Source of the DNA: a bacterium HR17
Lineage (GTDB): Bacteria > Armatimonadota > Fervidibacteria > Fervidibacterales > Fervidibacteraceae
DNA length: 40,681 bases
Reading direction: 5' to 3'
Assembly: GCA_002898575.1 (NCBI GenBank)
Contig: BEHT01000032.1
Span: forward strand, 1-40,681
Positions within the stretch are counted from its first letter, which is position 1. Every line of letters starts with the position of its first letter. Both the position numbers and the translations under genes were made by a program. Under the pieces are notes generated by a model. It saw only the letters and a program-made list of their open reading frames with translations. It was not told the DNA's origin and ran no database searches. Shown in pieces: positions 6,752 through 40,222 of the stretch.

Positions 6752-7089
6752 TTAGCGGCGATTACGCTTCATGAACCCACCGTTTTTCAGGTAACTCCCA
6801 GCGCGAAAAATCAAACCGTCAGCGAGTCCTTGAACCACTTTCGCCAAAGTGTTGGTGCTGCAAGGGACGATGACCATACCGTCGTAGCGAGCCGAGCCGC
6901 TTGAAGGCGGTGCCGCTAAATCCTTCGGATGGAACGCGATGATTTTGTTCATGTTTGTCCCCAGCAAACTCAGGTCAGGATTTTTCAAGTTGAGGTTGAC
7001 GCCGAGTTCGTGGGCGAAAAGCATCTTGCTTTGTTCCGACATGATGAAAGGGCACCGCTCGCACCAGTAACAGCCACTATCACTTTCAT
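6752..7089 (-). pseudogene. ubiX-like flavin prenyltransferase remnant
   Basis: The minus strand from ATG 7089 (after AAGGAG) encodes MKVIVAVTGASGAL, the canonical N-terminus of UbiX/Pad1 flavin prenyltransferases. The frame then breaks near 7045. In another frame the remaining 96 residues include the family block SSGSARYDGMVIVPCSTNTLAKVVQGLADGL, shown here in part: YDGMVIVPCST and GLADGLIFRAG. Most of the segment between these two blocks is missing, and the protein stops before the usual KERRPLVLVPRETP-type region. UbiX makes the prenylated FMN cofactor of UbiD decarboxylases. This copy has lost its middle and C-terminal third and should be inactive. It sits next to a restriction-modification locus in a lower-GC patch. 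Confidence 0.8.
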
Positions 7090-7319
7090 GAACCCATCAC
7101 ACTCCTTCGCTCTCAAGTTCGTTGCGAGGAGAAAAATTTTGTTGGCTCACCTTGAAGCGACAACTATGCCAAACTCTTAAAGGTGAGAGGGTGATGTTCT
7201 TGACCCTTAGCATCATTCTCGGCAACGCTCAAAACATGGCAGAGGTAGCAGATAGTTTGGTGCATCTCACCAGTCCACTCTACTTTAACTCGCCTCTTGA
7301 CTGTCCGAGGAGGTGAACG

Positions 7320-8243
7320 ATGATGACGATAGTGCTCTGTGGTGATTGCTTGAAGTTGCTGGACAAAGATACACTTGCTCAATATGGGATTGACACAGAA
7401 TTCTCCTTGACCTTCCTTGACCCTCCATTCAATCAGGGTAAGGATTACGCATTTTTTGACGACGAACTGCCGCCCGACGAGTATTGGGGATGGTTGACGG
7501 AAGTGTGTGCCAAAGTCTACGAACTTACTGCAGAGGGTGGGGCAATTTACTTCGTGCACCGTGAAAAGAATGCAGAGTATGTGCTGCGGTATTTGAGGGA
7601 AACAGGGTGGACATTGCAGAACTTAATTGTCTGGCAAAAGCAAACATCTGCCGTGCCTAATCAATGGCGCTATGGTAAAGCCTACCAAATTATCGCCTTC
7701 GCTACGAAAGGTCGTAAGCCAAGCGTTTTTCACCGTTTGCGAATTGATGCACCGTTGCGTCCAGAATACCGTTACGAGCGTGAAAACGGAATGTTTGTCA
7801 CTGATGTTTGGGATGACATTCGTGAGTTGACATCAGGCTATTTCGCTGGTGAGGAGGCTTTGCGCTACCCTGATGGCACTCGCATTTGCACTCAACAAAC
7901 TCCCATCGCTTTACTTTTGCGCATTTTACTGGCATCCACGAAACCGGGTGATTGGGTGTTAGATCCTTTTGCGGGGACTGGCACAACTTTGGTCGTTGCA
8001 GAGCAGTTAGGAAGAAATGCTGTTGGTATTGAGATTGACCCGCAGATGACGGAAGTAATTCGTTGGCGCTTGCGTGTTCGCCGTCCCGCTGATAGTATCG
8101 CACCCTACCGCCACTATTACCGCTTCACGCCCAATCTGGAAGCCATTTGGTCACCCAATGCGCTGAGTTATCCCCCTTCCGAGACCGTTATCCCGAGTTT
8201 GTTTGAACAGAGTAGGGGTGACGAAAGCGATGGGCATTCTTAG
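7320..8243 (+). CDS. Beta-class site-specific DNA methyltransferase (type II modification enzyme)
   Basis: A 307-residue SAM-dependent DNA amino-methyltransferase (N6-adenine or N4-cytosine). The catalytic motif DPPF (residues 34-37) precedes the SAM-binding motif I, VLDPFAGTGTTLVV (about residue 218 on). This is the motif IV then motif I order of the beta class, with the target-recognition region between them. GGAGG lies 6 bases before the first of two adjacent ATGs (7320, 7323). The gene is AT-richer than the surrounding genes and overlaps the restriction endonuclease gene. The recognition sequence cannot be read from the protein. With its endonuclease partner broken, it may persist as an orphan methylase. 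Confidence 0.92.
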   Translation: MMTIVLCGDCLKLLDKDTLAQYGIDTEFSLTFLDPPFNQGKDYAFFDDELPPDEYWGWLTEVCAKVYELTAEGGAIYFVHREKNAEYVLRYLRETGWTLQNLIVWQKQTSAVPNQWRYGKAYQIIAFATKGRKPSVFHRLRIDAPLRPEYRYERENGMFVTDVWDDIRELTSGYFAGEEALRYPDGTRICTQQTPIALLLRILLASTKPGDWVLDPFAGTGTTLVVAEQLGRNAVGIEIDPQMTEVIRWRLRVRRPADSIAPYRHYYRFTPNLEAIWSPNALSYPPSETVIPSLFEQSRGDESDGHS

Positions 8244-9190
8244 ATTGTATGTGACGCTCCTACGATGTTTGGCAGCACAGCCGGATAACGCAATCCAGAA
8301 AAGTTTGGACGAGATAGCAGGTGGCTATGGAGACTTCGCATACATTGGGAGTCGACGAACGCTGCAATCCATCGTGTTGAAGCAGGCTGGACTCCTTCAT
8401 CAAAGGCTTCAAAATTTTGACAAGCGATTTTATGATGAAGTGGCTCAAAAACAACCAGCATTGTTCAAGCGTTTGGCAGTTTGTCGCGATGATAGCGATT
8501 CAAGAAAAGTTGCCGCAGCCTGGTATGGGCGTGGTGATTGGGCGAAAGATTCAGGTGTCTTCCCTGATTTTGTGTTGGCATTGGACGATTTGGAAACTTT
8601 TGGCAACGGTGCAATTCTGGAATTGAAGGACTCTAATGGAAGCAACATCGCCTCGTTCAACTCCACATCCCCACTCGTTTCAAAAGCCTTAGAGAAGTGC
8701 AAGCAATCACAGGAAGTAAAATGGTTGTGGAAGCAGCATGGTTGCGAGACTTTCCACAATCACTCGCTGAAGATTGCCCAAGCAAAGAACGACATTGCTT
8801 CTACCTTATTCGCACCCATCGTCGCCTACAGGAACAGGTGAGAATTTCGCTGGTTGAAGGTTCATTTTTGAAACGATCCCGAAGAGTAAGTTAATCCAGA
8901 GAGTTTGGGAGCAAATCCTGAGCGAGACTGGTGTGCCTGAAGAACAAAAGCAGCAACTTCTCCCCTTACTGGCGCAATTGAAGCAATCAGCGATCGCCCA
9001 ATCACGCCACATTGAAGGTGCATCCGTCAAACCTCGTTTCCGCGTCATGGCAGAAGTTGAGAGCGATGCAAACCTTCATGCTTATCCTGAAATCAAGTCA
9101 CGAACAGTTAACTTGGTGATCAAACGGGAACGATACTACGATTGGGCATGGCTACGAGAGAAATTTGCCACTGAAGGGATAAAGGTTTAG
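8230..9190 (+). pseudogene. Type II restriction endonuclease gene with two frameshifts
   Basis: Cognate endonuclease of the overlapping methyltransferase, probably started at ATG 8230 (or GTG 8218). The first frame holds a PD-(D/E)XK nuclease core: P112-D113 in VFPDFVLAL and E131-L-K133 in AILELKDSNG. The open frame closes at 8841, but the sensible protein leaves it earlier. Near 8697, reading AAGTG as AAGGTG continues into EKVQAITGSKMVVEAAWLRD. Near 8866-8870, restoring a sixth T in TTTTT continues into SFFETIPKSKLIQRVWEQIL and on to the stop at 9190. Both lesions are single-base losses in short homopolymers. That fits natural decay but also consensus sequencing error, in which case the enzyme would be intact at about 320 residues. 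Confidence 0.8.
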
Positions 9191-9663
9191 ATAGCGCCAG
9201 AGGATGGTAAGGCAAAACTCGTGATAGGAGACAGTTTGTTAGTTCACTGCTTTTCTATTTGGCACAAACGCAATGGCGAGCATTGGTGTTTGCAGTGGCA
9301 ATAGCCGTAGACAGCTTGCGGCTATCCATCTATAGCCACATAACCCCTTGACCGTCTCCCTGCCCTTCCATAACCCTCTGCACAAAAGTCCCAACGCCCT
9401 CTTCCCTTGCTTGTCCATTCCTTAATTTTCTCAACGCTCCTTTCAACACCCAATCTTTTTCTCCCTTGCCACTTCTTCTTTTTCAACTTGGCAACTTCTT
9501 TTGGGCTTTCTCTTTAAAAGAGCCAAAGTATTGACCGATATTTGTCTCTAAGAGTGTTAGATTGACCTTGCTCCCCGACACCGCTTCCGCGACACCCACT
9601 GAATATTTGTCCCTAAAATGTATTGGCTTAACACTGAAAATTGGCAGAAGGAGGTCGTCGAGA
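9191..9663. other. Intergenic region with pyrimidine-rich strand and an imperfect direct repeat
   Basis: No convincing gene is seen. A 7-bp hairpin (ATAGCCG 9301-9307 with CGGCTAT 9319-9325) follows the restriction locus but has no T run. From about 9340 to 9520 the plus strand is strongly C/T-rich. Two similar segments, ATATTTGTCTCTAAGA (from 9538) and ATATTTGTCCCTAAAA (from 9603), lie about 65 bases apart just before the glyoxalase-family gene and could be paired operator sites. I cannot assign a promoter with confidence. Confidence 0.5.
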
Positions 9664-10068
9664 GTGACGGTTAAGGCAATCCATCACTGTTCCATCGTAG
9701 TGACTGATTTGGAGCGTGCCCGCCGTTTTTACAGGGATGTTTTAGGGCTTCAGGAAACGCCCGTCCCGTCCACTTTTGACTTTCCCGTCGCGTGGTTTCA
9801 GTTCGGCGACCAACAAATCCACCTTCTTCCACGCGGTCACGCTGACCCGCCCAGCCCACGCCATTTTGCTTTGTGGGTAGATGACGCCCAAGCGTGGCGG
9901 CAGTGCCTGAAAGAAAAAGGAATCGCCATCCAGGAGACAACTCCTATCCCCGGTGCGGACCGTTTCTTCATTCAGGACCCAGACGGTAACCTCATTGAGT
10001 TAATAGAATGGAGTGCGCCATGGCCACAAGCGGACCCTAACGCCCGCCGCTTGCCTTCGTTGGAATAA
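9664..10068 (+). CDS. Glyoxalase/VOC-fold metalloprotein
   Basis: A 134-residue single-domain-pair VOC (vicinal oxygen chelate) protein. GTG at 9664 is chosen because AGGAGG lies 9 bases upstream. The longer frame back to 9562 lacks a ribosome-binding site and adds sequence unlike the family. The N-terminal beta-alpha-beta unit IHHCSIVVTDLERARRFYRD and the C-terminal FIQDPDGNLIELIE are diagnostic. Candidate metal ligands H8, H53, H67 and E112 are all present, so a glyoxalase- or dioxygenase-like metal site is plausible. The substrate cannot be read from sequence. It converges on the TPR gene, 16 bases away, with no visible terminator between them. Confidence 0.85.
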   Translation: MTVKAIHHCSIVVTDLERARRFYRDVLGLQETPVPSTFDFPVAWFQFGDQQIHLLPRGHADPPSPRHFALWVDDAQAWRQCLKEKGIAIQETTPIPGADRFFIQDPDGNLIELIEWSAPWPQADPNARRLPSLE

Positions 10069-10084
10069 GCTCGGCGAATTCAGG

Positions 10085-10990
10085 CTACTCGGCGGGACGT
10101 AGTTCGCGCTCTTTGAGGCGTTCCTGCCATTCGCGCGCTTTAAATTCCGCCCGCGGTTCCAATTTGTGCCATTCGGTCATTTGTTGCATGATGGCGATGG
10201 CGCTTTCCACATCGCCCCGATCAAGGTAAATCTGTGCGAGTAGGTGGCGCGGGATAGTTGCGTATTTTTTGTCTGGATGCCGTAGCAAGTTCTCCATCAA
10301 CTCTATGGCTTCTACATCGTAGCCATTGCGGCTCATCGTTTCAGCGTAGGCGTAACGCTCGCGGAGCGTGATCGTTGCGCCACGGGCGACAGGGTTGTAG
10401 GGTGAGGCTAAGGCGGCTTCCTCCCAATGTTTCAATGCCATCTGAATGTTGGGCATCCGCTCGTAAGCGTGGGCGAGCATGTGACGCACCCAGTCCACAT
10501 CTTTAGTGAACTTGCCAGGGGCGTTCAGGGCGCGTTCCAGGTAATAAGCCGCTAACGCTGTGTCGCCCAACTTGTCGTAAGCCGTCCACCCTATCCCAAA
10601 TAGGAGGCTGAAGTCATTAGGGTTATTTTTCAGACCTTGTTCATAAACTTGCAACCCCAACTTGACCCACTGATAGCGGCGCGTTTCGTCCTTTTCTTCG
10701 GCGCGCAGGTTATAGGCAATGTGCCATCCGGCGAAGTCGTAGGCTTCAGCAAAGCCGGGATCCAGCAGTGTGGTCACCCGCAGCAATGGCAACACTAACC
10801 ACCAGCGTCCTGTGTCGCGGAAAATTTCTGACTGCTGCCACAGCGCTTTTGCCATCAACCGCCCCAGCAAGCGCCAACTGTTAGGAAGGGTGACATTGAC
10901 GCGTTGCCGCGATGAAACTGAAGATTGCCAAAGCGCGGCTGCTGCGAGCCAAACGGCTACCAGCAACAAGACAACGCCATAGCGTCGCAT
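10085..10990 (-). CDS. Membrane-anchored TPR-repeat protein
   Basis: A 301-residue protein with an N-terminal hydrophobic segment (residues 5-22, preceded by Arg-Arg) that is a signal anchor or signal peptide, followed by helical repeats of TPR type. Examples are FSLLFGIGWTAYDKLGDTAL, AYYLERALNAP, HMLAHAYERMPNIQMALKHW and HLLAQIYLDRGDVESAIAIM. Such repeats usually mediate protein-protein contacts outside or at the membrane. GAAAGGAGG lies 9 bases before the ATG. It is the last gene of the minus-strand run that contains the membrane protein and molybdenum-hydroxylase genes, 38 bases after the membrane-protein stop, so it may be co-transcribed. Function is unknown. Confidence 0.8.
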   Translation of the reverse strand: MRRYGVVLLLVAVWLAAAALWQSSVSSRQRVNVTLPNSWRLLGRLMAKALWQQSEIFRDTGRWWLVLPLLRVTTLLDPGFAEAYDFAGWHIAYNLRAEEKDETRRYQWVKLGLQVYEQGLKNNPNDFSLLFGIGWTAYDKLGDTALAAYYLERALNAPGKFTKDVDWVRHMLAHAYERMPNIQMALKHWEEAALASPYNPVARGATITLRERYAYAETMSRNGYDVEAIELMENLLRHPDKKYATIPRHLLAQIYLDRGDVESAIAIMQQMTEWHKLEPRAEFKAREWQERLKERELRPAE

Positions 10991-11028
10991 GTTTGTGTCA
11001 CCTCCTTTCTTTCTACGGTTTTAACCAC

Positions 11029-11709
11029 CTAAGCGCGCCAGTCCGCTTTCAGCTGGCGCAGATACAGTGCGATGGAGATGACGATGAACATATACACTGC
11101 CACATAGAGGGTGTTAACTATCAGCAAGTTAAACCATTGCCATCCCTCAATCAGCAAGGTATTTTGTAATCCGCTGACAACCTGAAATGGCACGACCCAG
11201 TTCCAAAGCTCCAGCACGGACCGCAACCAAGGTTCCCGCAGAAACTGCATCGCTTCCGTAATCAACGGCGCCAAGACAATCGTTCCGCCAAACATAAGGA
11301 GCAATAACCAGTAATATTTCCTGAAACTCACACTTAGTAAGTAAAGTAATGATATCAAATATGAAACAATAAGATTTATAATAATGATTTTAAGAAATAA
11401 AGTAAAATCTAGCTCAGTGATAATTAATATATAACCGACTATAGCAATAACAGACTGTATCAGAATCACACTTGTTATTTTACGAAGCACTTCTACATAA
11501 CTCGTAAATATATTCTCTTTTCGATGACTAGAACTAACATATCGGTATGAGTAAAAACTTACAAAACATAGATTAAATAAATTAAAAATAACTAACAATA
11601 AAGATACGTACGTATAAGATTTATTTAGGAGAATAATATTGTAAGATAAAATGAGATAAAAAATTACTGAGAGAATTGCTGTAATTGCAGCAAGGATGTA
11701 TAAACTCAT
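11029..11709 (-). CDS. Polytopic membrane protein, ABC-permease-like
   Basis: A 226-residue hydrophobic protein with about six predicted membrane segments and no other domain. It looks like an ABC-2-type permease, and its partner gene upstream resembles an ABC ATPase, with which it overlaps as ATGA. Its substrate is unknown. The first ~135 codons are extremely AT-rich (Ile, Tyr, Asn, Lys and Ser from A/T codons), while the last ~90 codons have the host GC level and contain WNWVVPFQVVSGLQNTL. The frame stays open across the change. The weak resemblance to any named family makes the transporter assignment an inference from context. Confidence 0.7.
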   Translation of the reverse strand: MSLYILAAITAILSVIFYLILSYNIILLNKSYTYVSLLLVIFNLFNLCFVSFYSYRYVSSSHRKENIFTSYVEVLRKITSVILIQSVIAIVGYILIITELDFTLFLKIIIINLIVSYLISLLYLLSVSFRKYYWLLLLMFGGTIVLAPLITEAMQFLREPWLRSVLELWNWVVPFQVVSGLQNTLLIEGWQWFNLLIVNTLYVAVYMFIVISIALYLRQLKADWRA

Positions 11710-11830
11710 TCTACATGCACCTCTCGCGAAGAGGTGTGGATATCTATCAATTTATAGTTATTTGAAAATATTTTATAGATAGTTTCAATAAATAAGCGAG
11801 AAGGTGGGAGCCCTATAAGAATGGTTTGTT
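11300..11830. other. AT-rich block crossing two in-frame genes
   Basis: About 530 bases of strongly A/T-rich sequence sit inside a region that is otherwise near 60% GC. The block covers the last ~42 codons of the ATPase-like gene and the first ~135 codons of the membrane-protein gene. It contains their ATGA overlap and breaks neither frame. Both edges fall within coding sequence. No inverted repeats, target duplications or transposase mark the edges. A homologous-recombination patch from a low-GC donor, or local relaxation of selection, are the two explanations I consider. Confidence 0.85.
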
Positions 11831-12143
11831 CTAACGATGGAAAGGGCAACTTTGTGGCGTGCGGTAAAAGCAAGATCGGTGCTGGAGAGGGCAGCATTTG
11901 CTCGCTATCGACGACCTCAAGGAGGCGGCGTTCTGAAGCGCGACGGGGCGGTTCATTGTAGTACCAAATTTCACCTTCTGTGGGCAGCACGGTGCCGTCC
12001 AAAACTTGAAATAGCAATGTCAATTGGTCAGGGGGGGCGATGAACCCGACCCACTCTCCTGGCGCGGCGGTGAGGCTTAGCCCCCGCACGATAGGGTAGC
12101 CGTCTGCCACGACGGTGAGGTTGCGCACCTCTACTGCCGTCAT
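11706..12143 (-). CDS. Degenerate ABC-ATPase-like protein lacking Walker A
   Basis: The 145-residue protein begins like an ABC nucleotide-binding domain: VEVRNLTVVADGYPIVRGLS, then GEWVGFIAP and LPTEGEIWYYNEP. In a normal ATPase the GPNGAGKST loop lies between the last two. Here the loop reads APPDQLTLL with no glycine-lysine core. No LSGGQ signature or normal Walker B is visible, and the protein is about 60-100 residues shorter than usual. It should not hydrolyse ATP. The final ~42 codons lie in the AT-rich block. It overlaps both neighbours as ATGA (molybdopterin subunit upstream, membrane protein downstream), so it is translated in a coupled set and kept in frame, which argues against a simple pseudogene. 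Confidence 0.7.
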   Translation of the reverse strand: MTAVEVRNLTVVADGYPIVRGLSLTAAPGEWVGFIAPPDQLTLLFQVLDGTVLPTEGEIWYYNEPPRRASERRLLEVVDSEQMLPSPAPILLLPHATKLPFPSLEQTILIGLPPSRLFIETIYKIFSNNYKLIDIHTSSREVHVE

Positions 12144-21680: not shown

Positions 21681-23054
21681 ATGCTTTGGGAACGCTTCAC
21701 CGAGCAAGCGCTCAAAGCCTTTCTCAACGCCAAAAATTGGGCGAACCGGCTCCGCTCCCCGACCGTTACACCGGAGCATTTGCTGTTGGGTTTGTTGGAC
21801 GATGAATCTGCCCTCGCCGTCCAGTTGTTGCAGCAATGGGGCGTGGACCCGCAGCAACTGCGCGCCGAAATGGAGCGCCAACTGGCGTTGACGGCGCCCC
21901 GCCGTCCGCCGACCGAACCGCCGATATGGTCGCCGGCGTTGCAGCAAACGGTGCATTGGGCAGCCGAAGAAGCCCGCGCTTTGCGGGAGAACCGCATTGA
22001 AAGCGTCCACCTTTTGCTAGGGCTTTTGCGCGACCGGCACAACCCTGCGGCGCGTTGGCTTGCCCGCTACGGGTTGCTTTGGGATGAATTGCGCCGCCGA
22101 GTCCATGCGATGAAAGCCAGCGAACCCGAACAGGCAACACCACCTCGTTTCCCCGCCGATGTCGCTTGGGATTTGACGGCGAAAGTGGATGAAGGGGACA
22201 TCCAGCCGGTGCCCCTCTGGCAGCGGGAGCGGCTGCACCTGAAACTCGCTTTGCTGCAGGGCAAACATATCGCTTTGTTGGGCGACTGGGACCTCGCAGT
22301 ATTGCTGGCAGAACAAGCCGCTTGGGACTTGGCGCAAGAGATGCTACCAGAGACGCTGCGGGGACGCCGCCTGTTCTGGGTGAACGGGACGGCTTTAATG
22401 GCGCGGGCTGACCGCGACGCCGCGCTCGCCGATGTGATAGACGCCGCTCAAGCCATGTTGCCCCAGCCCGTCTTGGTGCTAGGGGCATTGGAATGGTGGG
22501 CAGCGATGGGGCATTTGTGCGCTGCCTTGGCGCAACGGCACATCTGCGCCGTTACTTTGACGGACGCGACGCGATGGGACGGCTTCGCTCGGCGACTCCC
22601 TGACCTCGCCGCTCTCTTTTGCCCGATACGCATCGGCGAGCCCACCGCCCGCGAGGCGTTGGAATGGCTGCGAGCGCACAAGCACCGCTACGAGCAGCAG
22701 TATCGCCTTGAAATCAGCGAAGAGGCGTTGCTTGCAGCGATCAAAAAAGCGGCGCACGCGCCGTCCCGACCGCTGTTGACCGCCGCACGGCAGTTGTTGG
22801 AAGCAGCCTGCGCCTACGCACAGTTGGACGCTGCCGCCCCGCAGGAGATGCGTGACTTGCAAGCGGAGTTGACTTTGTTGCACGCTCAGATGCAAGACCT
22901 CATCAAAGTGGGCGACCACGAGCATCTGCCCGCGTTGATGGAGCGGGCATTTGTGCTGCAGAAACGCTTGGACGATTGGCGCACATCGCCGTCTCCGTCG
23001 CCGTGCGTCGGCGCAGCGCACATTTACGCGACCGCCCAACTGTTGCACCTTTGA
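21681..23054 (+). CDS. Truncated, catalytically dead ClpC paralogue
   Basis: A 457-residue protein. Start ATG 21681 is chosen because MLWERFTEQALKAFLNAKNW matches the start of the true ClpC at 24160. Residues 1-145 form the double Clp N-domain ([30 protein letters not shown]). Residues about 165-375 align with AAA domain 1, but every catalytic element is gone. The Walker A loop GDAGVGKT is GDWDLAVL (201-208). The Walker B IDEL is LGALEW. The arginine-finger segment LERRFQPV is LAALFCPI. Residues about 385-435 match the coiled middle domain, then the protein ends, so domain 2 is absent. The frame is intact, which argues for a retained role, perhaps capping or regulating ClpC. Its ribosome-binding site is weak. 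Confidence 0.85.
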   Translation: MLWERFTEQALKAFLNAKNWANRLRSPTVTPEHLLLGLLDDESALAVQLLQQWGVDPQQLRAEMERQLALTAPRRPPTEPPIWSPALQQTVHWAAEEARALRENRIESVHLLLGLLRDRHNPAARWLARYGLLWDELRRRVHAMKASEPEQATPPRFPADVAWDLTAKVDEGDIQPVPLWQRERLHLKLALLQGKHIALLGDWDLAVLLAEQAAWDLAQEMLPETLRGRRLFWVNGTALMARADRDAALADVIDAAQAMLPQPVLVLGALEWWAAMGHLCAALAQRHICAVTLTDATRWDGFARRLPDLAALFCPIRIGEPTAREALEWLRAHKHRYEQQYRLEISEEALLAAIKKAAHAPSRPLLTAARQLLEAACAYAQLDAAAPQEMRDLQAELTLLHAQMQDLIKVGDHEHLPALMERAFVLQKRLDDWRTSPSPSPCVGAAHIYATAQLLHL

Positions 23055-23145: not shown

Positions 23146-24036
23146 ATGGAGACGGGCGGCAACGAGTTGTTGGTCTGGCTGAACGGCGAACTGGTGCCGA
23201 AATCGCAGGCGAAAGTTTCTGTTTACGATCACGGTTTGCTTTACGGCGACGGGGTGTTTGAAGGCATTCGCGCTTACGACGGGCGGGTCTTCATGTTGGG
23301 CGAGCACCTTGACCGCCTTTACGAGAGCGCCAAAGCCATCTGGCTGACCGTCCCCTTGACGAAACGGCAACTTCAGGACGCCATCTTGCAAACCCTGCGG
23401 GCAAACCGACTGAGCGACGCCTACATCCGCGTCGTCGTTACGCGGGGTGTCGGCGACTTGGGCTTAGACCCGCGCAAGTGCAGCCAACCGAATGTCATCA
23501 TCATCACCGACCACATTGAGTTGTTTCCCGACGAGTTGTATCGGCAGGGCATTGAAATGGTTACCGTGTCGGTGAGGCGCAATGTCCCGCAGGCGCTCAA
23601 CCCCAACATCAAATCCCTCAACTACCTGAACAACATCCTCGCCAAGATTGAAGCCATCAACGCGGGCAAACCCGAAGCCTTGATGCTGACCGTGGACGGT
23701 TATGTGGCGGAAGGGACGGGCGAAAACATCTTCATCGTCAAGCGGGGCGAACTGTTCACGCCGCCGGCTTACATGGGCATTTTGAACGGCATTACCCGTC
23801 AAGTCGTCATGGCGTTGGCGCGCGATGCGGGGATTGCCGTGCGCGAAAGCGTGTTGACCTTGCACGATGTTTACACTGCCGACGAATGTTTTTTGACAGG
23901 CACGGGCGCAGAGATCGTGCCGGTCGTCAAATTGGACGGACGCCCTATCGGGGACGGTGTGCCCGGACCGATAACCCAAACGCTCATCCAAAAGTTTCGG
24001 GCATACACCCGTCAAACGGGCGTGCCGATAGAGTGA
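23146..24036 (+). CDS. ilvE: Branched-chain amino acid aminotransferase
   Basis: PLP-dependent fold-type IV transaminase (last step of Leu, Ile and Val synthesis), 296 residues. ATG 23146 is preceded by AAGGAGG. Signatures: VYDHGLLYGDGVFEGIRAYDG at the N-terminus, K156 in NPNIKSLNYLNNILAK as the expected PLP Schiff-base lysine, EGTGENIFIVK, and DECFLTGTGAEIVPV near the C-terminus. D-amino acid transaminase and aminodeoxychorismate lyase share the fold, but these motifs favour IlvE. It lies between the degenerate and the true clpC genes. Confidence 0.92.
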   Translation: METGGNELLVWLNGELVPKSQAKVSVYDHGLLYGDGVFEGIRAYDGRVFMLGEHLDRLYESAKAIWLTVPLTKRQLQDAILQTLRANRLSDAYIRVVVTRGVGDLGLDPRKCSQPNVIIITDHIELFPDELYRQGIEMVTVSVRRNVPQALNPNIKSLNYLNNILAKIEAINAGKPEALMLTVDGYVAEGTGENIFIVKRGELFTPPAYMGILNGITRQVVMALARDAGIAVRESVLTLHDVYTADECFLTGTGAEIVPVVKLDGRPIGDGVPGPITQTLIQKFRAYTRQTGVPIE

Positions 24037-24159: not shown

Positions 24160-26667
24160 ATGCTCTGGGAGCGTTACACCGAACGGGCGCGCAAGGTGAT
24201 GTTGCACGCTGAAGATTGGGCAATTCGCTTGCGCTCGCCCTACATTTCGTCGGAGCACATCCTGCTGGGGTTGCTGGAGGAAGAGGACACCCTCGCTGTT
24301 CAAATCTTGGAGCGGTTGGGGGTAGATGTGCCCCGCATGAAAGCCGAGTTGGAAAGCCAGTTACGGGCGTCCGCTCCGTCCCACGCTCCGGTCGGTTCAC
24401 CGACGCTGACCTCACCCGCCAAGCAAGTGTTGATCCGAGCGGCTGATGAAGCGCGCTCCATGAACGACAGCCACATAGACACGGCTCACCTGCTGTTGGG
24501 CTTGCTGCGCGAAAAGCAGGGTCTGGCGGCGAAAATCCTCGCCAAATACAATGTCCGCTTTGAAGATGTCCGTCGGCGCCTTTACGATTTGAAAGCCGAG
24601 GACATGGGTGTGACGCCCCATGTGCGCAAACGCACGAACACGCCGGCGCTGGACGCTTTCAGCCGCGACTTGACCCAACTGGCGATTGAAGGCAAGTTGG
24701 ATCCCGTCATCGGGCGTGACGCAGAAATTGAACGCGTCATCCAAATCCTTTGCCGGCGCACGAAAAATAACCCCGTGCTGGTCGGCGATGCGGGTGTCGG
24801 CAAAACCGCCATCGTGGAAGGGTTAGCCCAACGCATCGTCAACCGCGAGGTCCCGGACATCTTGCAGGACAAACGCTTGGTCGCACTGGATTTAGCGGCG
24901 ATCGTCGCCGGCACCAAGTATCGGGGCGAGTTTGAAGAGCGCATGAAGCGCATTATGAACGAAATCCGCCAGTCGCAAGGGCAAATCATCGTCTTCATCG
25001 ACGAGTTGCACACCATCGTCGGCGCCGGCGCAGCGGAAGGCGCCATTGACGCCTCCAACATCCTCAAGCCTGCGCTGGCGCGGGGCGAACTGCGCTGCAT
25101 CGGCGCCACGACGCTGGAAGAGTATCGTCGCTACATAGAAAAGCATTCCGCGTTGGAGCGCCGTTTCCAGCCGGTCTATGTCTCCGAGCCGACCTTAGAG
25201 CAGACGGTGGAAATCCTGCGGGGGTTGCGCACCACCTACGAAGATTTCCATCGGGTGCGCGTGGACGACCGTGCGTTAATCGTCGCGTCCCGCTTGGCGC
25301 AGCGTTACATCACCGACCGCAGGTTGCCGGACAAAGCCATAGATGTCTTGGACGAAGCCTGCGCGCGGGTGAAGTTGCGCCATTCGTCGCCGCCCAAAGA
25401 GATCCGCGAACTGTCCCAAGAGTTGGAGCGGGTGCGCACCGAGAAAGAGCGTGCCATCCAAGAGTATGACTACGAACGGGCAAACACGCTCCGCCAACGC
25501 GCTCAAATGCTGCAAGAGCAACTGGAGCGGTTGCAACAGGAATGGCGTGAGCGCTCGCTGGAAGATGTGCCTACGGTGAGCGAGGAAGATGTGGCGTTGG
25601 TCGTTGCCGAGTGGACGGGCGTGCCCGTATCGCGCCTGACCGAAGACGAAACGCGCCGGTTGCTGCAGATGGAGGAATTCTTGCGCCGCCGCGTTGTCGG
25701 TCAAGACGAAGCCATCAGCGCCATTTCGCGTGCCATCCGTCGCGCCCGCGCCGGGCTGAAAGACCCGCGCCGTCCGACCGGCGCGTTCGTTTTCCTCGGA
25801 CCCACCGGTGTGGGCAAAACTTTGCTGGCTCGCGCGCTGGCTGAGTTCCTGTTCGGCACCGAGGACGCGTTGGTGCGCATTGACATGAGCGAATACACTG
25901 AACCCCACACGATCTCCCGCTTGGTCGGTGCCCCGCCTGGCTATGTCGGCTACGAAGAGGGTGGGCAGTTGACGGAAGCCGTGCGGCGACGCCCCTTCTG
26001 CGTCGTGCTGCTGGACGAGTTTGACCGCGCCCACCCGCAAGTCACCAACATCCTGCTGCAAATCATGGACGAAGGACGGCTGACCGACGCCCAAGGGCGC
26101 ACCGTCGACTTCCGCAACACCATCATCATCATGACCAGCAACATCGGCTATCGCGGCTTCCAACACGAACTGACTGAATCCCGCTTGGGCTTTAAGCCCG
26201 AAACCGACGACCTGTTGGAGCGCAAGGTCTTCGTTGAAATGGAAAAGCGGATGCGCAAACTCTACGAGGAACGCTTCAGCGCTGAGTTCCGCAACCGCGT
26301 GGACGAGGTCATCGTCTTCCGCCCGTTGCAGCGCGAGCATGTCTTGCAAATCGTGGATGTGGAACTGCGCCCCGTTGTGGACGAACTGGCCCAGAAGGGC
26401 GTGCGGCTGGTGCTCACCGAACCTGCCCGCGAACGGTTGGCGGATTTGGGCTACGATAAATACTACGGTGCCCGCCCCCTGCGGCGTGTCCTGCAAAGCT
26501 ATGTGACCGACCCGCTCTCGGAACGCATCTTGGCAGGCGATGTGCACGAGGGCGACACGGTCGTCGTTGATTGCGACCCGACGACAGGCGAAATCGTAAT
26601 CCGCGTCGGTGAAAGTGCCTTGGCGTCTGCAGGCGTCGGGCACGCCGAGGAATTGAGCAGTAACTGA
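24160..26667 (+). CDS. clpC: ATP-dependent Clp protease ATP-binding subunit ClpC
   Basis: AAA+ unfoldase that feeds substrates to ClpP, 835 residues. ATG 24160 follows AAAGGAG; the frame upstream to 24037 lacks family similarity. Domain order: double N-domain (1-145), AAA domain 1 with Walker A 209-216 (GDAGVGKT) and Walker B I280-D281-E282, coiled middle domain (about 410-480, which distinguishes ClpC/ClpB from ClpA), and AAA domain 2 with Walker A 547-554 (GPTGVGKT) and Walker B L618-D619-E620. The middle domain is short, as in ClpC rather than ClpB. No mcsA/mcsB or ctsR is adjacent. A strong terminator follows. Confidence 0.96.
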
Positions 26668-26703: not shown

Positions 26704-26746
26704 AAAAGCGATGGGTGTCTGGTGTCCAGACACCCATCGCTTTTTT
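26704..26746 (+). terminator. Strong intrinsic terminator after clpC
   Basis: A perfect 15-bp stem (GCGATGGGTGTCTGG at 26708-26722, complement at 26726-26740) has a 3-base loop TGT and is followed by TTTTTT. Four upstream A residues extend the pairing to 19 bp. It separates the clpC transcript from recA. Confidence 0.95.
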
Positions 26747-33450: not shown

Positions 33451-36400
33451 ATGGTATCGGCGCAACCAGGACAACTGGTGCACGGACCGTTTTGGCAGGA
33501 ACCAGTGCGGGTGCTAAGCGTGCAAGCGGTAGACACATGGGTGTGGGTAAAGGTGGAAGGGCTGCGCTCCCATCGCGTGTGGGAGCGTTTTTTGTCCTCT
33601 GACGAATGGGCGCAGGTGCGCCCCGCTCCGCCCCGCAACGGGCGCGGAGATCCCGAACGCGCCTTCTTGGCGTTGGAGGGCTATCGGGTGCGCTCGGCAT
33701 ATCTCTTTGACCCGCTGCTCGCCGTCACCGTATCCCAAATTGACCCGTTACCTCACCAAATTGAAGCCGTTTACCGCGCCATCCTGCGCAACCCGCGCGT
33801 CCGATTCCTTTTGGCGGATGACCCTGGCGCTGGCAAAACCATCATGGCTGGACTGGTGATGAAAGAACTCAAGTATCGTGGGCTCGTGCAAAGGACGCTT
33901 ATCGTCGTCCCAGGTCACTTGCGTGAACAGTGGCGTCGGGAGATGCAGGAGCGGTTCAACGAGGCGTTCGTCGTTGTTGACCGAGGTGTCCTCAACAGTT
34001 TACTTGGGCACAACGCCTGGCAGGAGTTCAATCAGGTCATCACATCTATGGATTTCGCAAAACAACGGGATGTCTTGGAGTCCCTCAAAGATGCCCGTTG
34101 GGATTTGGTCATCGTTGACGAAGCCCACAAGTTCGCCGCTTACAAATACGGCAGCCAAACGAAGCGGACGGACAGATACAAGTTGGGGGAAGTCCTTTCG
34201 CCACGAACCCATTTCATGCTTTTCTTGACAGCAACACCGCACAAAGGCGACCCGGAGAACTTCCGACTGCTGTTGAATTTGCTTGAGCCTGGCATGTTCC
34301 CAACCGTCAACTCAATTGGTGAACTCTCGCGCCAAAACTCAACCCACCTGATCTTTCTACGCAGGATGAAAGAAGACCTGAGAAACTACGACAACACACC
34401 GCTGTTCCCGCCGAGAGAAGTGACGACCGTGCTTTACCAAATGTCGGACGCCGAAAAAGAACTTTACGATGCCGTCACCCAATATGTCCGCAGACACTAC
34501 CGAGAAGCGGTGGCTGAAAAGAAGCACGGCGTCGGCTTCGCGATGCTAATCCTCCAAAGGAGAATGGCGTCAAGCGTCCACGCCCTCCTCTCAACTTTGC
34601 GACGGAGACACCAAAGGTTGCAGGAATCGTTACGCTTGTGGGAAAGTTTCTTGAAACGACAGCAAGAGGCAGCCTTTGTTGACGAAGGTGAACTGAGAGA
34701 TGACCTTGAAGACGCTCCCGAAGAGGAACGCTGGCAAAAGGAAAACGAGTTCGTGGAGTCCCTGAGCACAGCCGGCTCAATTGCCCAGTTGAAGGACGAA
34801 ATCGCTGAGTTGGAACGGTTAATCGGTCTGGCGGAAAAAGTCGTTGAGTCGGGTGAAGAGACGAAACTTGCCGAGTTGAGGAAAGTGCTGGAATCCGAGG
34901 ATGTGAGGGGGAAAGGCGTCAAACTGCTCATTTTCACCGAATCCCGTGAAACGATGGAATACCTCGCAGCGCAATTGAAAAGTTGGGGGCTCTCTGTCAC
35001 GACCTTGCACGGGGGCATGAGCATGGAACAGCGGTTGGCTGCAGAGAACGAGTTCCGCAACAGGGCGCAAGTCATGGTTTCAACGGAGGCGGGCGGTGAA
35101 GGCATCAACCTTCAGTTTTGTTGGCTCATGGTCAACTACGACATCCCTTGGAACCCCAACCGACTTGAACAACGCATCGGGCGCATTCACCGATACGGGC
35201 AAAGGCACGCCGTCAGCGTCTACAACTTGGTCGCCGCAAACACAATTGAAGGGCGAATTTTGAAAACCCTTGACCAGAAACTCCAGCAAATCCGCAAAGC
35301 CTTGGGCAGCGACCGCGTTTTTGATGTCCTGGGCGACATCGTTGACTACTTGCTTGACGGGAAAAGCCTTGAAGACCTCGTCGTCCAAGCCATCGCCCAT
35401 CCGATAACCCTTGACGACATCGTCGCCCAAATTCAGAGAAAGCCGAACGACGAGTTGATTCGGAAGGTGCAGGAAATTTCCCTCGAAATGCTCGCTCAAA
35501 GGCACATCAACCTGGCTTGGGTGTTGGGCGAATCGGAAAGGGCAAAAGAGAACCGCCTCATCCCCGAATACATTGAGCGCTTCTTCCTGCGCGCCTGCGA
35601 GAAACTTAAAGTGAATGTCAAGCGAAGGGGCGACAGGATTTTCCAAATTGATTGGGTGCCCGCTGAAATCCGCGATGTGTCAACAGAGTTCAAAAACAGG
35701 TTCGGCGAAGTTCACACGACTTACCGAAAGTTCACCTTCCGCAAAGAACTTGCCCGCGACGATGTCGAATTCATCGCACCAGGACACCCCTTGCTTGAAG
35801 CGGTCGTTGAGAAACTCATGGCGTTGGGCGATGAGGACTTGAGAGGCGGGGCGTGTTTTTACGACCCGACCAGACGCTGGGACGGTTGGCTTTGGGCGCT
35901 TGAAGGCGAAATCGTTGACGGACGCCAAGAAGTGGTCGGGAAAAGACTGTTCGCCGTCTACCAACCGAAAGAAGGTAAACCGATCGTCGTCAACCCCGCA
36001 GTCATCTGGGATTTGCACCCTGCACCGCCGGAGAATTACCGACCTGAACAACCGACGGCTGAAGACCCTTCGGAAGTTCCCGCACCGATCATCTTAGCCT
36101 TGCTGCCCGAAATGCACGCTTACCTATCTGAACTGAAATCCGACAGGGAAAAGTTCGCCGAAGTGAGGCAAAAATACGCCCTGCCCAGATTGCGGCACTT
36201 GATCAACGAGCAGGAAGCCAAAATCGCCGATTTGGAGTTCAGGCGAACGCGTGGCGAAAATGTTGAACTCACCCTTCGGAACGAGAAAAGGGAACTTGAC
36301 AGATTGCAAGATCAACTGAAAGCGCTGCAGGAAAGTTTGGTAACCGAAACGACCTTGAGCATCGGTCGGTTCTCGGTGTTGACCGTCTTCCGCGTCATGC

Positions 36401-36807
36401 CCATGCCAGTTGACGAACACACCGCCGATGTGATGGCTGAAACCCCTGAACTTGAAGTCGTAGGGCTGCAGGTCGCCATGAATCATGAGCGAAAGCACGG
36501 TCGTTCCCCTGTTGATGTCTCTTTGCAACGGTTGGGCTACGACATCAGGTCAACAGCACCCGACGGAACCGTCCGCTACATTGAAGTCAAAACGCGGGCG
36601 CGAAGCGGCAGCATAGCGCTCACGGAACACGAGTGGCTGAAAGCCAAGCAACTGGGCGAGTCTTATTGGCTCTATGTCGTGGAGAACGCCGCCACTGAGC
36701 CGACATTGTGGCTAATCAACAATCCCGCTGACAGACTTGAACCGCAAGCGCAAATCGTGCAATATGTCTTTGACCGTTGGAAGGCAGCGGCGCAAATTGC
36801 CGATTAA
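33451..36807 (+). CDS. SNF2-family helicase with C-terminal DUF3883 domain
   Basis: An 1118-residue DNA translocase. Walker A GAGKT is at 126-130 in LLADDPGAGKTIMAG, DEAH at 223-226, LTATPH about 260, and the second RecA lobe ends with motif VI QRIGRIHRYGQ at 574-584. Residues about 430-480 are a charged coiled insertion between the lobes. The C-terminus (about 1010-1100: LQRLGYDIRSTAPDGTVRYI, then EVKTRARSGSIALTEHEWLKA) is a DUF3883 domain, a restriction-endonuclease-like fold often fused to defence helicases; D and ExK-like residues (IEVK) are present. The architecture resembles DrmD of class 1 DISARM and the helicases of DUF1156/DUF499 cassettes. A methyltransferase gene follows 59 bases later. 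Confidence 0.9.
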   Translation: MVSAQPGQLVHGPFWQEPVRVLSVQAVDTWVWVKVEGLRSHRVWERFLSSDEWAQVRPAPPRNGRGDPERAFLALEGYRVRSAYLFDPLLAVTVSQIDPLPHQIEAVYRAILRNPRVRFLLADDPGAGKTIMAGLVMKELKYRGLVQRTLIVVPGHLREQWRREMQERFNEAFVVVDRGVLNSLLGHNAWQEFNQVITSMDFAKQRDVLESLKDARWDLVIVDEAHKFAAYKYGSQTKRTDRYKLGEVLSPRTHFMLFLTATPHKGDPENFRLLLNLLEPGMFPTVNSIGELSRQNSTHLIFLRRMKEDLRNYDNTPLFPPREVTTVLYQMSDAEKELYDAVTQYVRRHYREAVAEKKHGVGFAMLILQRRMASSVHALLSTLRRRHQRLQESLRLWESFLKRQQEAAFVDEGELRDDLEDAPEEERWQKENEFVESLSTAGSIAQLKDEIAELERLIGLAEKVVESGEETKLAELRKVLESEDVRGKGVKLLIFTESRETMEYLAAQLKSWGLSVTTLHGGMSMEQRLAAENEFRNRAQVMVSTEAGGEGINLQFCWLMVNYDIPWNPNRLEQRIGRIHRYGQRHAVSVYNLVAANTIEGRILKTLDQKLQQIRKALGSDRVFDVLGDIVDYLLDGKSLEDLVVQAIAHPITLDDIVAQIQRKPNDELIRKVQEISLEMLAQRHINLAWVLGESERAKENRLIPEYIERFFLRACEKLKVNVKRRGDRIFQIDWVPAEIRDVSTEFKNRFGEVHTTYRKFTFRKELARDDVEFIAPGHPLLEAVVEKLMALGDEDLRGGACFYDPTRRWDGWLWALEGEIVDGRQEVVGKRLFAVYQPKEGKPIVVNPAVIWDLHPAPPENYRPEQPTAEDPSEVPAPIILALLPEMHAYLSELKSDREKFAEVRQKYALPRLRHLINEQEAKIADLEFRRTRGENVELTLRNEKRELDRLQDQLKALQESLVTETTLSIGRFSVLTVFRVMPMPVDEHTADVMAETPELEVVGLQVAMNHERKHGRSPVDVSLQRLGYDIRSTAPDGTVRYIEVKTRARSGSIALTEHEWLKAKQLGESYWLYVVENAATEPTLWLINNPADRLEPQAQIVQYVFDRWKAAAQIAD

Positions 36808-36866
36808 CTCGTAAGGGTAGACTACCACCCAACTGAAGTCAAGTGAGCGAGGAGGTTGACGCAACG

Positions 36867-38351
36867 ATGCCAAAACGGCTCATTGAGGTTGAAGGGGCGT
36901 TCCCGTTGGAAGAGGTGAGCGCGGAGTCAAGGCGGGAGAAAAACATCCGTCACGGTCACATCTCAACCCTGCATATCTGGTGGGCGAGACGACCTTTGGC
37001 GGCGTCCCGCACAACCATTTTCGCCGCCTTGATGCCCGCCCCCGACAACGCGGACAATCAGGCTCGCAGGCGCTCGGCAACAAACTCCAAATTGAGAAAC
37101 CTCCGCGTGACTGCGTTGCGGGATTTAATCGCCCACATCGCCCCTTGGGAAGCGGTCAAAGACGGGGACAACCGTTGCATTCAGCAGGCTCGCGCCCTCA
37201 TCCGCCAAATCTACCCTGAACCGCCAAAGGTGTTGGACTGTTTTGCAGGCGGAGGGAGCATCCCGCTGGAAGCCCTCCGGCTCGGTTGCGCAACTTACGC
37301 TCTGGACTACAACCCAGTCGCCGTCTTGATTTTGAAAGCCATCTTGGAGTATCCTCAAAAGTTCGGGCGAATTTTGTTGGACGCTGTCAAGCAGTGGGGC
37401 GATTGGGTGCTGAACGAGGCGAAAAAGGAACTTGACAAGTTTTATCCCAAAGACCCCGACGGCTCAATCCCTGTCGGATACCTCTGGGCTCGCACATTGC
37501 CTTGCCAAGACCCAAACTGCGGCGCTGAAATCCCATTGATGAGGCAAACTTGGCTGGCAAAAAAAGACAACCGCGCAATTGCTTTGAAGTTGACTGCCGA
37601 TAAAACCGCCAAACGCGTGGATGCTACCATCGTGCAAGGCAATCAAATTGACTTTGACCCCTCCGTCGGAACGGTCAAAGGAGCGGTCGTCACCTGCCCC
37701 GTCTGTGGCGGAACAATTGATGACGACACGACGCGACGACTTTTCCGTGAAGGCAAATCTGGGCAACGCATGATGGCAGTGGTGTTGCACCATCCTCAGC
37801 GCTCTGGCAAAACCTACCGCTTGCCCACCAGCCGCGACCTTCAAGCCTACCGCGCCGCTGAGGCAGCGCTGGAAACGAAACGCCAGCAACTCTGGGCTGA
37901 ATGGGGCATTGACCCCGTGCCGGATGAGTTGATTCCGACACCGTGCCATGAAGTAGACCGTTTGCCGATGTATGGTATGCCCCGCTGGGGTGACGCCTTT
38001 AACGCTCGTCAGAAGTTGGCGCTGATTACCTTTGCCGATGCCGTGCGCCGCGCCCACAAGGAAATGCTCGCCCAAGGCGCTGAGCCAGAATTTGCTAAAG
38101 CAGTGGTGACTTATTTGGCACTCACATTTAATCGCCTCGCGGCCTCATACAACAGCCTATGCCGATGGCAACCTGCAGGTGAAAAGATAGCGGATGTCTT
38201 CTCTCGCCAAGCATTACCTATGGTTTGGGATTTTTCAGAACCGAATCCATTTGGTGGCGCCTCCAGAAGTTGGGACGAACTGTTTAGAGACACGAACGAT
38301 GTCCTTACCCACCTCACCCGCATCCCGCCAGTAAAGGAGGCGGAACTATGA
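36867..38351 (+). CDS. DUF1156-type DNA methyltransferase, N-terminal half (split gene)
   Basis: N-terminal half of a large adenine-type DNA methyltransferase, 494 residues. ATG 36867 follows GAGGAGG; a GTG at 36843 is less likely. The DUF1156 start is clear: LIEVEGAFPLEEVSAESRRE, then HISTLHIWWARRPLAASRTT. SAM-binding motif I, VLDCFAGGGSIPLEAL, spans about 122-137. Two Cys pairs (CQDPNC and CPVC) form a probable zinc site. The protein stops after TRIPPVKEAEL, just before the position where intact relatives enter the GSAT-LPYPD and DPPY segment. It therefore lacks the catalytic motif IV, which the gene at 38990 supplies. The stop overlaps the ATG of the next gene (ATGA). Confidence 0.92.
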   Translation: MPKRLIEVEGAFPLEEVSAESRREKNIRHGHISTLHIWWARRPLAASRTTIFAALMPAPDNADNQARRRSATNSKLRNLRVTALRDLIAHIAPWEAVKDGDNRCIQQARALIRQIYPEPPKVLDCFAGGGSIPLEALRLGCATYALDYNPVAVLILKAILEYPQKFGRILLDAVKQWGDWVLNEAKKELDKFYPKDPDGSIPVGYLWARTLPCQDPNCGAEIPLMRQTWLAKKDNRAIALKLTADKTAKRVDATIVQGNQIDFDPSVGTVKGAVVTCPVCGGTIDDDTTRRLFREGKSGQRMMAVVLHHPQRSGKTYRLPTSRDLQAYRAAEAALETKRQQLWAEWGIDPVPDELIPTPCHEVDRLPMYGMPRWGDAFNARQKLALITFADAVRRAHKEMLAQGAEPEFAKAVVTYLALTFNRLAASYNSLCRWQPAGEKIADVFSRQALPMVWDFSEPNPFGGASRSWDELFRDTNDVLTHLTRIPPVKEAEL

Positions 38352-38647
38352 AGGTGAAGCGGCGCGAGGAGATTGAGCGTATCTTGCGGGAACACAAAGA
38401 GGAATTGCGGGAGAAATATGGTGTCCGTGAGATCGGTCTTTTCGGCTCTTATGTGCGAGGCGAGCAACACAAGCGCAGCGATGTGGACATCTTAGTGGAA
38501 TTTGAAGTTGTGCCGGGGTTGCTCAAATTCATAGAACTGGAGAACTACCTATCCCGATTGCTGGGCGTTCGGGTGGACTTGGTGCGTAGGGCTTCCATCC
38601 GCGAAGAACTTCGGGAACGCATCCTTAGCGAGGTGGTTATGATATGA
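38348..38647 (+). CDS. mntA: MNT-type nucleotidyltransferase antitoxin
   Basis: A 99-residue minimal nucleotidyltransferase. The catalytic signature is complete: G33-S34, ten residues, then D45-V-D47 (GSX10DXD), plus D77 in GVRVDLV as the likely third carboxylate. In characterised MntA-HepT pairs the MNT protein adds AMP to a tyrosine of the HEPN toxin and silences it. AAAGGAGG lies 7 bases before the ATG, the strongest ribosome-binding site in the operon. The gene lies between the two halves of the methyltransferase and overlaps its neighbours by four bases on each side. Confidence 0.95.
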   Translation: MKVKRREEIERILREHKEELREKYGVREIGLFGSYVRGEQHKRSDVDILVEFEVVPGLLKFIELENYLSRLLGVRVDLVRRASIREELRERILSEVVMI

Positions 38648-38997
38648 AGCGCACATACACCCTGTTTCTGAAGGACATTCTGGAGGCAATGGAGAAAATA
38701 GAGCAGTTTACAGGCGAGACATCTTTTGATGAGTTCGTCCAAGACGACATGCGCGCCAGCGCCGTAGTGCGAAAATTAGAGATCATCGGCGAAGCCGCTA
38801 AAAACATCCCGTCGGCAGTGAGGCGGCGATACCCCGATGTCCCCTGGAGCAGCATGGCACGCATGCGCGACCGGCTCACTCATGGCTACTGGGCGGTAGA
38901 TTACGAAATCGTCTGGAAGGTAATCAGGGCAGAACTCCCAGCCCTCAAGCCGAGGATTCAGGAAATCTACAGGAAGGAGTTAAAGCACGATGGTTAA
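38644..38997 (+). CDS. hepT: HEPN-domain ribonuclease toxin (HepT/DUF86)
   Basis: A 117-residue all-helical HEPN protein. The RNase motif RX4HXY is intact: R75, H80 and Y82 in RDRLTHGYWAVD. Y82 is the residue that MntA proteins AMPylate in studied pairs. The block VVRKLEIIGEAAKNIP is typical of DUF86. With the MNT gene immediately upstream it forms a complete type VII-like toxin-antitoxin unit. Translation should be coupled to mntA (ATGA). Its end overlaps the C-terminal methyltransferase half by eight bases. Confidence 0.95.
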   Translation: MKRTYTLFLKDILEAMEKIEQFTGETSFDEFVQDDMRASAVVRKLEIIGEAAKNIPSAVRRRYPDVPWSSMARMRDRLTHGYWAVDYEIVWKVIRAELPALKPRIQEIYRKELKHDG

Positions 38998-40222
38998 GGT
39001 TTTGCAAGGCTCCGCCACCAAACTTCCCTACCCAGACAACTTCTTTGACGCCGTCATCACCGACCCGCCATGGTGTGACAATGTGAACTACTCAGCGTTG
39101 TCGGACTTCTTTTATGTTTGGCTCAAGCGAGTCGTCGGCGATCTCTACCCCGAACTCTTTGCCACGCCATTAACGCCTAAAAGCGAAGAAATCGTGCAAG
39201 ATCCCAACCGCCATGGTGGCAAAGAAAAGGCAAAAGCGTTTTTTGAACAAATGCTCACCCAGGCTTTCCGTGAGATTTACCGTGTTCTGAAAGACGACGG
39301 CATTGCGGTGATCGTGTTTGCTCACACGAGCGTTGAGGCGTGGGAAAGTGCTATCAAGGCATTGCTAGACGCTGACCTTTACCTGACAGCATCGCTCCCT
39401 ATCCACACGGAAATGGAGACGCGGTTGCTTGCTCGAGGAACAGCAGCGTTGGCTTCATCGGTTTACATGGTTTGTCGCAAACGATTGGGGCAGGAAGTTG
39501 GCGAATATCGCAAGGTCATCAACGAAATGCAGGACGCAATCCCGAAGTCGTTGGAGCGGTTCTGGGACGCAGGCATAAGCGGCGCCGATTTTTGGCAAAG
39601 TTCTATCGGTCCAGCCGTCGCTGTCTTCGGACGATACAAAAAAGTTGTCAAGCAAGACGGCACCGAAGTCAGCGTCCGAGAGTTGCTTGAGGAGGCTCGC
39701 AAAATCGTCGCCCAATATGCACTTAAGCGTGTGCTGGAAAAAGTCGGTGGCGACGCTTACACCGTCGGCGGACTTGACCCATTAACTCGGCTCTACCTTG
39801 TCTGGCGATGGACATTCGGCGGCGGGAGAACCAAAGTGCCTTTTGATGCTGCCCTGCGGGTCGCAAGGGCTGAAGGCGTTGATTTGCACGATGTCGCCAG
39901 AGGCGATGGCTTGGTCAAGGTGAAAGGCGGCGATGTTTGGGTCATCGGTCCAAACGAACGCAAAAGCGATAAAAAGTTCATGCAGGCTGAACGGTTCGCT
40001 TCGCTCGTTGATGTCTTGCATCGGGCAGTCCTTGCGTGGCAAAGTGGCGATGAAGGGATACTGCAAAACCTCTTAACCCAATACAGCGGGAACGACCTCT
40101 TCTGGCAAGTGGCACAAGCCATCGCAGAAGTTTTACCCGAAGGCGACGAGGAACGAAGGTTGCTTCATGGCTTCTTAGCCATGCGAGGGAAGATAGGTCG
40201 TTTCGGGGGGCTGTTCTCCTGA
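38990..40222 (+). CDS. DUF1156-type DNA methyltransferase, C-terminal half (split gene)
   Basis: C-terminal half, 410 residues, with its own AAGGAG 10 bases before ATG 38990. It opens MVKVLQGSATKLPYPDNFFD and then carries the catalytic motif IV, D25-P-P-W28 in VITDPPWCDNVNYSALSD, followed by DFFYVWLKR, all standard for the region just after the point where the first half stops. EIYRVLKDDGIAVIVFAHTS and a long C-terminal part (VGGLDPLTRLYLVWRWTFGG) complete the DUF1156 family length: 494 + 410 residues. It has no motif I, so activity would need the first half in trans. Its last codons and stop lie inside a palindromic repeat (TGA in GAACAGCC at 40220-40228). Confidence 0.92.
   Translation: MVKVLQGSATKLPYPDNFFDAVITDPPWCDNVNYSALSDFFYVWLKRVVGDLYPELFATPLTPKSEEIVQDPNRHGGKEKAKAFFEQMLTQAFREIYRVLKDDGIAVIVFAHTSVEAWESAIKALLDADLYLTASLPIHTEMETRLLARGTAALASSVYMVCRKRLGQEVGEYRKVINEMQDAIPKSLERFWDAGISGADFWQSSIGPAVAVFGRYKKVVKQDGTEVSVRELLEEARKIVAQYALKRVLEKVGGDAYTVGGLDPLTRLYLVWRWTFGGGRTKVPFDAALRVARAEGVDLHDVARGDGLVKVKGGDVWVIGPNERKSDKKFMQAERFASLVDVLHRAVLAWQSGDEGILQNLLTQYSGNDLFWQVAQAIAEVLPEGDEERRLLHGFLAMRGKIGRFGGLFS

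Follow-up and report, generated by a model that had tools for sequence, protein, structure and literature searches.

Pseudoenzymes are familiar among kinases and proteases. Partial homologues of the Hsp100 class I unfoldase ClpC that lack an ATPase but carry a Clp_N domain are known from mycobacteria, where ClpC2 and ClpC3 coexist with ClpC1 and were proposed to compete for the ligands of its N-domain; for ClpC2 such competition has been demonstrated (PMC10030653). ClpC2 consists of an N-terminal dimerisation domain and a ligand-binding Clp_N domain at its C-terminus, and has neither AAA1 nor M-domain (PMC10030653). In plants, the Clp-like SMXL/SMAX1/D53 proteins have turned into regulators; they are ClpB-like, possess a D2 domain and an EAR motif, and have kept their Walker motifs (PMC9133912). 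Finally, residues 1-485 of B. subtilis ClpC, an engineered piece of the working protein, are seen in complex with MecA (PDB 3pxg). A narrow literature search found no paper on a bacterial Hsp100 unfoldase half that has lost its motor, is under selection and keeps the AAA1 fold.

The window analysed here, the whole stretch of 40,681 nucleotides, encodes at 21681-23054 (+) a protein of 457 residues, pseudo-ClpC, composed of an N-domain, a dead AAA1 domain and an M-domain, without domain 2. The surrounding frame is open for 541 codons, the 457 being counted from the ATG that aligns with Met1 of ClpC. The parent paralogue, a true ClpC with two intact AAA domains, is encoded at 24160-26667 (+). BLASTP aligns residues 1-434 of pseudo-ClpC with this protein at 31% identity and 54% positives (E=4e-60), and pseudo-ClpC is colinear with its first 460 residues through N-domain, AAA1 and M-domain, as the initial annotation had read from the two translations. 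Its claim of an intact frame of 457 codons with normal composition holds as well: the third-position GC is 0.73 vs 0.75 in ClpC, and the base composition at the individual codon positions agrees with ClpC. The arrangement resembles that of ClpC2 and ClpC3 in that a Clp_N protein with no working ATPase accompanies a true ClpC; unlike ClpC2, pseudo-ClpC starts with Clp_N, continues with dead AAA1 and M-domain, and is a complete N-D1-M half that derives from the ClpC of its genus. It shares its N-D1-M boundaries and the cut in the D1-D2 linker with the 3pxg fragment, whereas the window gene is natural and its D1 dead.

Pfam recognises in pseudo-ClpC Clp_N (PF02861, two stretches, 1.9e-20), the double form that ClpC has too, and AAA_lid_9 (4.9e-7); it recognises neither of the AAA domains, both of which score in the true ClpC. 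The individual losses were read by aligning pseudo-ClpC with ClpC proteins from five genomes of the class. Within the large AAA1 subdomain (22170-22616, +; 21% identical to ClpC), Walker A is changed from GDAGVGKT to GDWDLA-V, with loss of the lysine column and deletion of one residue (remnant GDWDLAVLL, 22281-22307, +), Walker B from FIDELHT to VLGALEWW (remnant VLVLGALEWW, 22470-22499, +), and the sensor-1 region from IGATT to TLTDA. At the arginine fingers (22608-22616, +), where ClpC reads ALERRF and pseudo-ClpC DLAALF, Ala-Ala-Leu replaces Glu-Arg-Arg. The alignment thus confirms the replacement of the Walker A lysine, Walker B and both fingers and the stop after the middle domain that had been claimed before, and adds the pore loops to the list, as most of pore loop 1 (AGTKYRGE) and of the region of pore loop 2 is deleted. 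The C-terminal tail (22989-23054, +) corresponds by homology to the beginning of the D1-D2 linker, in which the protein ends, and the AAA2 domain and the ClpP-binding loop are absent. It is established for AAA+ proteins that an AAA1 domain without P-loop, fingers and pore loops is no motor.

Relatives with the same ATPase losses, for which the initial annotation had proposed to search, do exist. A profile search of the phylum, over 291 genomes from 156 genera, found the family in two genomes only, the window genome and its congener Armatimonadetes MAG SKW126; the profile was built from the dead copies themselves, so that a very divergent relative could escape it. Against genome contigs, pseudo-ClpC as a single-protein query had no match, and an alignment of pseudo-ClpCs matched nothing beyond SKW126 and a Choladousia protein that is an ordinary ClpC. 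By this survey the class members G003 (90% complete) and G004 (96%) have ClpC and ClpB only, and the congener G002 (63% complete) ClpC only. SKW126 contains three copies. That on contig C225 has its N-domain (L033 5976-6452) and AAA1+M (L033 6403-7416) in two overlapping frames, both otherwise open; the frame break between the two domains (L033 6380-6410) lies at a T6 run in a contig of 4.6x coverage, and may be an assembly error, a recent mutation or slippage. Of a second copy the tail is seen at the edge of contig C217 (L035 2-331), while the third, on C282 (L034, minus strand), consists of an N-domain followed by frameshifted remnants and does look like a decayed pseudogene.

The dead copies have diverged strongly, with 31% identity from copy to copy where the true ClpCs of the window genome and SKW126 are 89% identical. 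The window copy and C225 share the one-residue deletion in Walker A, WQ[RK]ER where ClpC has the GR..EIERV region, the motifs LEWLRxHKxxY and PLLxxARxLLxxxCAYA in the small AAA1 (lid) subdomain (22617-22835, +), and the position of the stop. The C217 tail partly matches the last two of these traits (LLTTAKNLLDEACAHA), and all three copies end at the same place. Both the window copy and C225 depart from a class-invariant ClpC residue in 114 columns, and in 34 of these they carry the same new residue; 7.7 identical replacements are expected by shuffling (maximum 19 in 5000) and 9.9 by BLOSUM62. Judged by these shared derived residues, the window copy and the SKW126 copies descend from one dead ancestor. 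In a quick tree with very long pseudo-copy branches, the dead copies are nested within the ClpC clade of the genus. Such a placement is not expected from long-branch attraction, as attraction would favour the outgroup, though their exact position is unsure. On these comparisons the pseudo-ClpC family is young, having originated within the genus's own branch of ClpC, and evolves fast.

Fast evolution (31% vs 89% identity), confinement to one genus, the decayed C282 copy and the broken frame of C225 would all fit a functionless duplicate that decays slowly and was caught before its frame broke. The evolution of the dead copies themselves argues against this. When the window copy is compared with C225, codon positions 1, 2 and 3 are 46, 61 and 33% identical, against 26-27% for shuffled partners. 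Point estimates of dN/dS were dropped because of saturation at synonymous sites (t at its bound), and we relied, besides the codon-position identities, on a test of omega = 1, which was rejected (2dlnL = 55), and on a run with fixed dS. With dS set to the ClpC value for the same species pair (3.5), omega came to about 0.2 in the AAA1+M part and to 0.15 in the N-domain, rough values since the copies compared may be paralogues instead of orthologues; for true ClpC of this species pair it was 0.019. Hence the codon comparisons show purifying selection of the dead copies against each other, at a constraint estimated to be some ten times weaker than that on ClpC. When ClpC was left to drift neutrally down to 34% identity in simulations, each of the 30 runs acquired at least 5 stops (mean 10), so that the intact frame of the window copy is far above neutral expectation. 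Together with selection after motor loss, the common derived residues, the well-ordered predicted fold, and the position of the C225 break at a T6 run in a thinly covered contig with both frames otherwise open, this makes slow decay the least probable of the explanations considered. The initial annotation had named a dN/dS near 1 or absence from all relatives as marks of a decaying duplicate; as relatives exist and omega = 1 is rejected, neither was found, albeit with weak constraint and a small family. Neutral evolution, a broken frame and a lack of conserved relatives, as in a pseudogene, are likewise not seen for the window copy, and the suggestion of a pseudo-unfoldase is supported by the relatives with the same losses and the selection between them.

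The AlphaFold2 model of pseudo-ClpC (pLDDT 90.6) shows N-domain helices, an alpha-beta AAA1 core, the lid and the M-domain coiled coil, and its top Foldseek matches in the PDB are ClpC structures, including 3pxg. The sequences aligned for it, from the window, SKW126, Choladousia and viral contigs, are mostly ClpC, so that ClpC informs the prediction and the model is no proof of the fold. When the D1-M part of SKW126 was folded without an alignment, only lid and M were predicted well. Pseudo-ClpC is thus predicted to fold as an ordered N-D1-M module.

Such a module might bind ClpC in a mixed ring, a spiral or a cap and, acting as an adaptor or a dominant-negative subunit, control how ClpC assembles. 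In S. aureus ClpC, the head-to-head contacts of M-domains depend on F436 and R443, and MecA binding on F436 (PMC5699869). The resting state further requires the N-domain residues T7, R9 and K85 and, in AAA1, D356, and in it N-domains touch AAA1 and M-domains of neighbours (PMC12583610), contacts that could admit a second N-D1-M protein. Consistent with ClpC binding, the lid and M regions retain family-specific residues (lid 42-49% identical from copy to copy), clpC is 1.1 kb away from the gene, and the protein ends at the boundary of the crystallisable 3pxg fragment. However, in the M-domain (22836-22988, +) both critical residues are gone from the window, C225 and C217 copies: in an ungapped alignment position 436 is H/Q/R and position 443 M/I/M, in the window copy His413 (22917-22919) and Met420 (22938-22940). 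R9 is replaced by Gln in both dead N-domains, and K85 by Gln in the window copy, with Lys kept in C225; position 356 is Thr in the true ClpC of the window genome. Because F436, R443, R9 and, in the window copy, K85 are changed, the classical resting-state contact is unlikely. Furthermore, the arginine fingers and Walker motifs, which make the interfaces of AAA rings, are absent, and pseudo-ClpC adjoins clpC only in the window genome. Contact with ClpC through the M-domain, which the initial annotation had envisaged, therefore finds no support, M-domain capping of ClpC by pseudo-ClpC is unlikely from the residues present, and we regard ClpC binding in any of these forms as doubtful, with perhaps one chance in a handful.

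The N-domain (two Clp_N repeats, 21681-22115, +) is the part most similar to ClpC, with 46% (window copy) and 62% identity in the dead copies, compared with 21-24% in the large part of AAA1. Most of it is kept, including T7 and E32 (pArg1 site), while V13 is replaced by Ala in both copies. This pattern makes action through the N-domain the best-supported option, ahead of M-domain contact with ClpC. We propose, tentatively and at slightly less than even chance, that pseudo-ClpC, a motor-dead half of ClpC, is an N-domain decoy or holdase, by analogy with mycobacterial ClpC2/ClpC3. The comparisons show that, in an ancestor common to the window genome and SKW126, a duplicate of the clpC of the genus lost domain 2 and, within AAA1, all residues of nucleotide binding, arginine fingers and pore loops, and that it has been retained as a non-motor protein ever since. 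Its N-domain would be a soluble copy of the ClpC docking domain on an inert scaffold and might bind the N-domain ligands of ClpC, such as unfolded substrates, adaptor-like proteins and peptides. These would be neither unfolded nor passed to ClpP, which is present, and pseudo-ClpC would compete with ClpC or shield it. A decoy alone needs only the N-domain, and the kept lid and M regions are left unexplained by it.

A role unrelated to ClpC, for example in DNA binding or transcription, has precedents in ClpC2, which represses its own gene (PMC10030653), and in the ClpB-like SMXL regulators of plants (PMC9133912). Yet domain and structure searches found no DNA-binding or extra domain in pseudo-ClpC, and its N-domain is still ClpC-like, which makes such a role improbable, only marginally less so than slow decay. 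That selection still maintains the sequence of a copy with a destroyed motor suggests that this copy now competes with or regulates the real ClpC.

No members of the ClpS and MecA families were found in five genomes of the class; a search for McsB-type arginine kinase gave no match, and neither did its control. It is conceivable, at rather long odds, that an inert N-D1-M protomer enters or caps ClpC assemblies and regulates ClpC-ClpP in place of the missing MecA/ClpS-type adaptors. If pseudo-ClpC does act on ClpC, it would show how ClpC can be tuned in a genome without MecA or ClpS, and would provide a natural ATP-independent N-D1-M module that separates N-domain binding from the motor.

Between the pseudo-ClpC gene and clpC lies an ilvE-like aminotransferase gene (23146-24036, +), and the ilvE-clpC pair is kept in all five genomes of the class. 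A terminator-like hairpin of 19 pairs (26704-26744, +) is located 3' of clpC; a promoter scan near the pseudo-ClpC gene found nothing above chance. Elsewhere in the window, Hma-type defence genes occupy 33451-40222, with the HmaA helicase at 33451-36807 and an HmaB methylase that is split over two ORFs (36843-38351 and 38990-40222) and probably broken. The region 7000-12000 has a low GC content (0.39-0.55 vs about 0.60), contains a DNA methylase and a TPR ORF, and was possibly acquired.

Spare copies of the ClpC N-domain also occur in other Armatimonadota, where, unlike in pseudo-ClpC, the domain stands alone or is fused to ornithine carbamoyltransferase or GGDEF, with no AAA1 or M-domain. In two other families, three genomes have Clp_N-only ORFs immediately upstream of clpC (L029 3052-3735, -; L020 658-1233, +; L054 4525-5250, -), and similar ORFs adjoin Clp_N-argF in L052, L053 and L060. 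ORFs of 470-550 residues with Clp_N from other families were considered as orthologues of pseudo-ClpC and rejected, as they are Clp_N-ArgF fusions. These are in-frame fusions of a Clp_N double repeat with a complete ornithine carbamoyltransferase (ArgF) and occur in many other Armatimonadota (L041 1363-2865, -; L042 2548-4017, +; L043 2954-4402, +; L045, L048, L052, L053 and L060); Pfam confirms both parts in L041, and a narrow literature search found no paper on the fusion. In a further Clp_N fusion (L051 2699-4168, +) the carbamoyltransferase lacks FEKPSLRTR, HPCQ and HCLPAHRG and is an apparent pseudo-ArgF, and L058 2056-3285 (-) encodes a fusion of GGDEF, ribbon-helix-helix and Clp_N.
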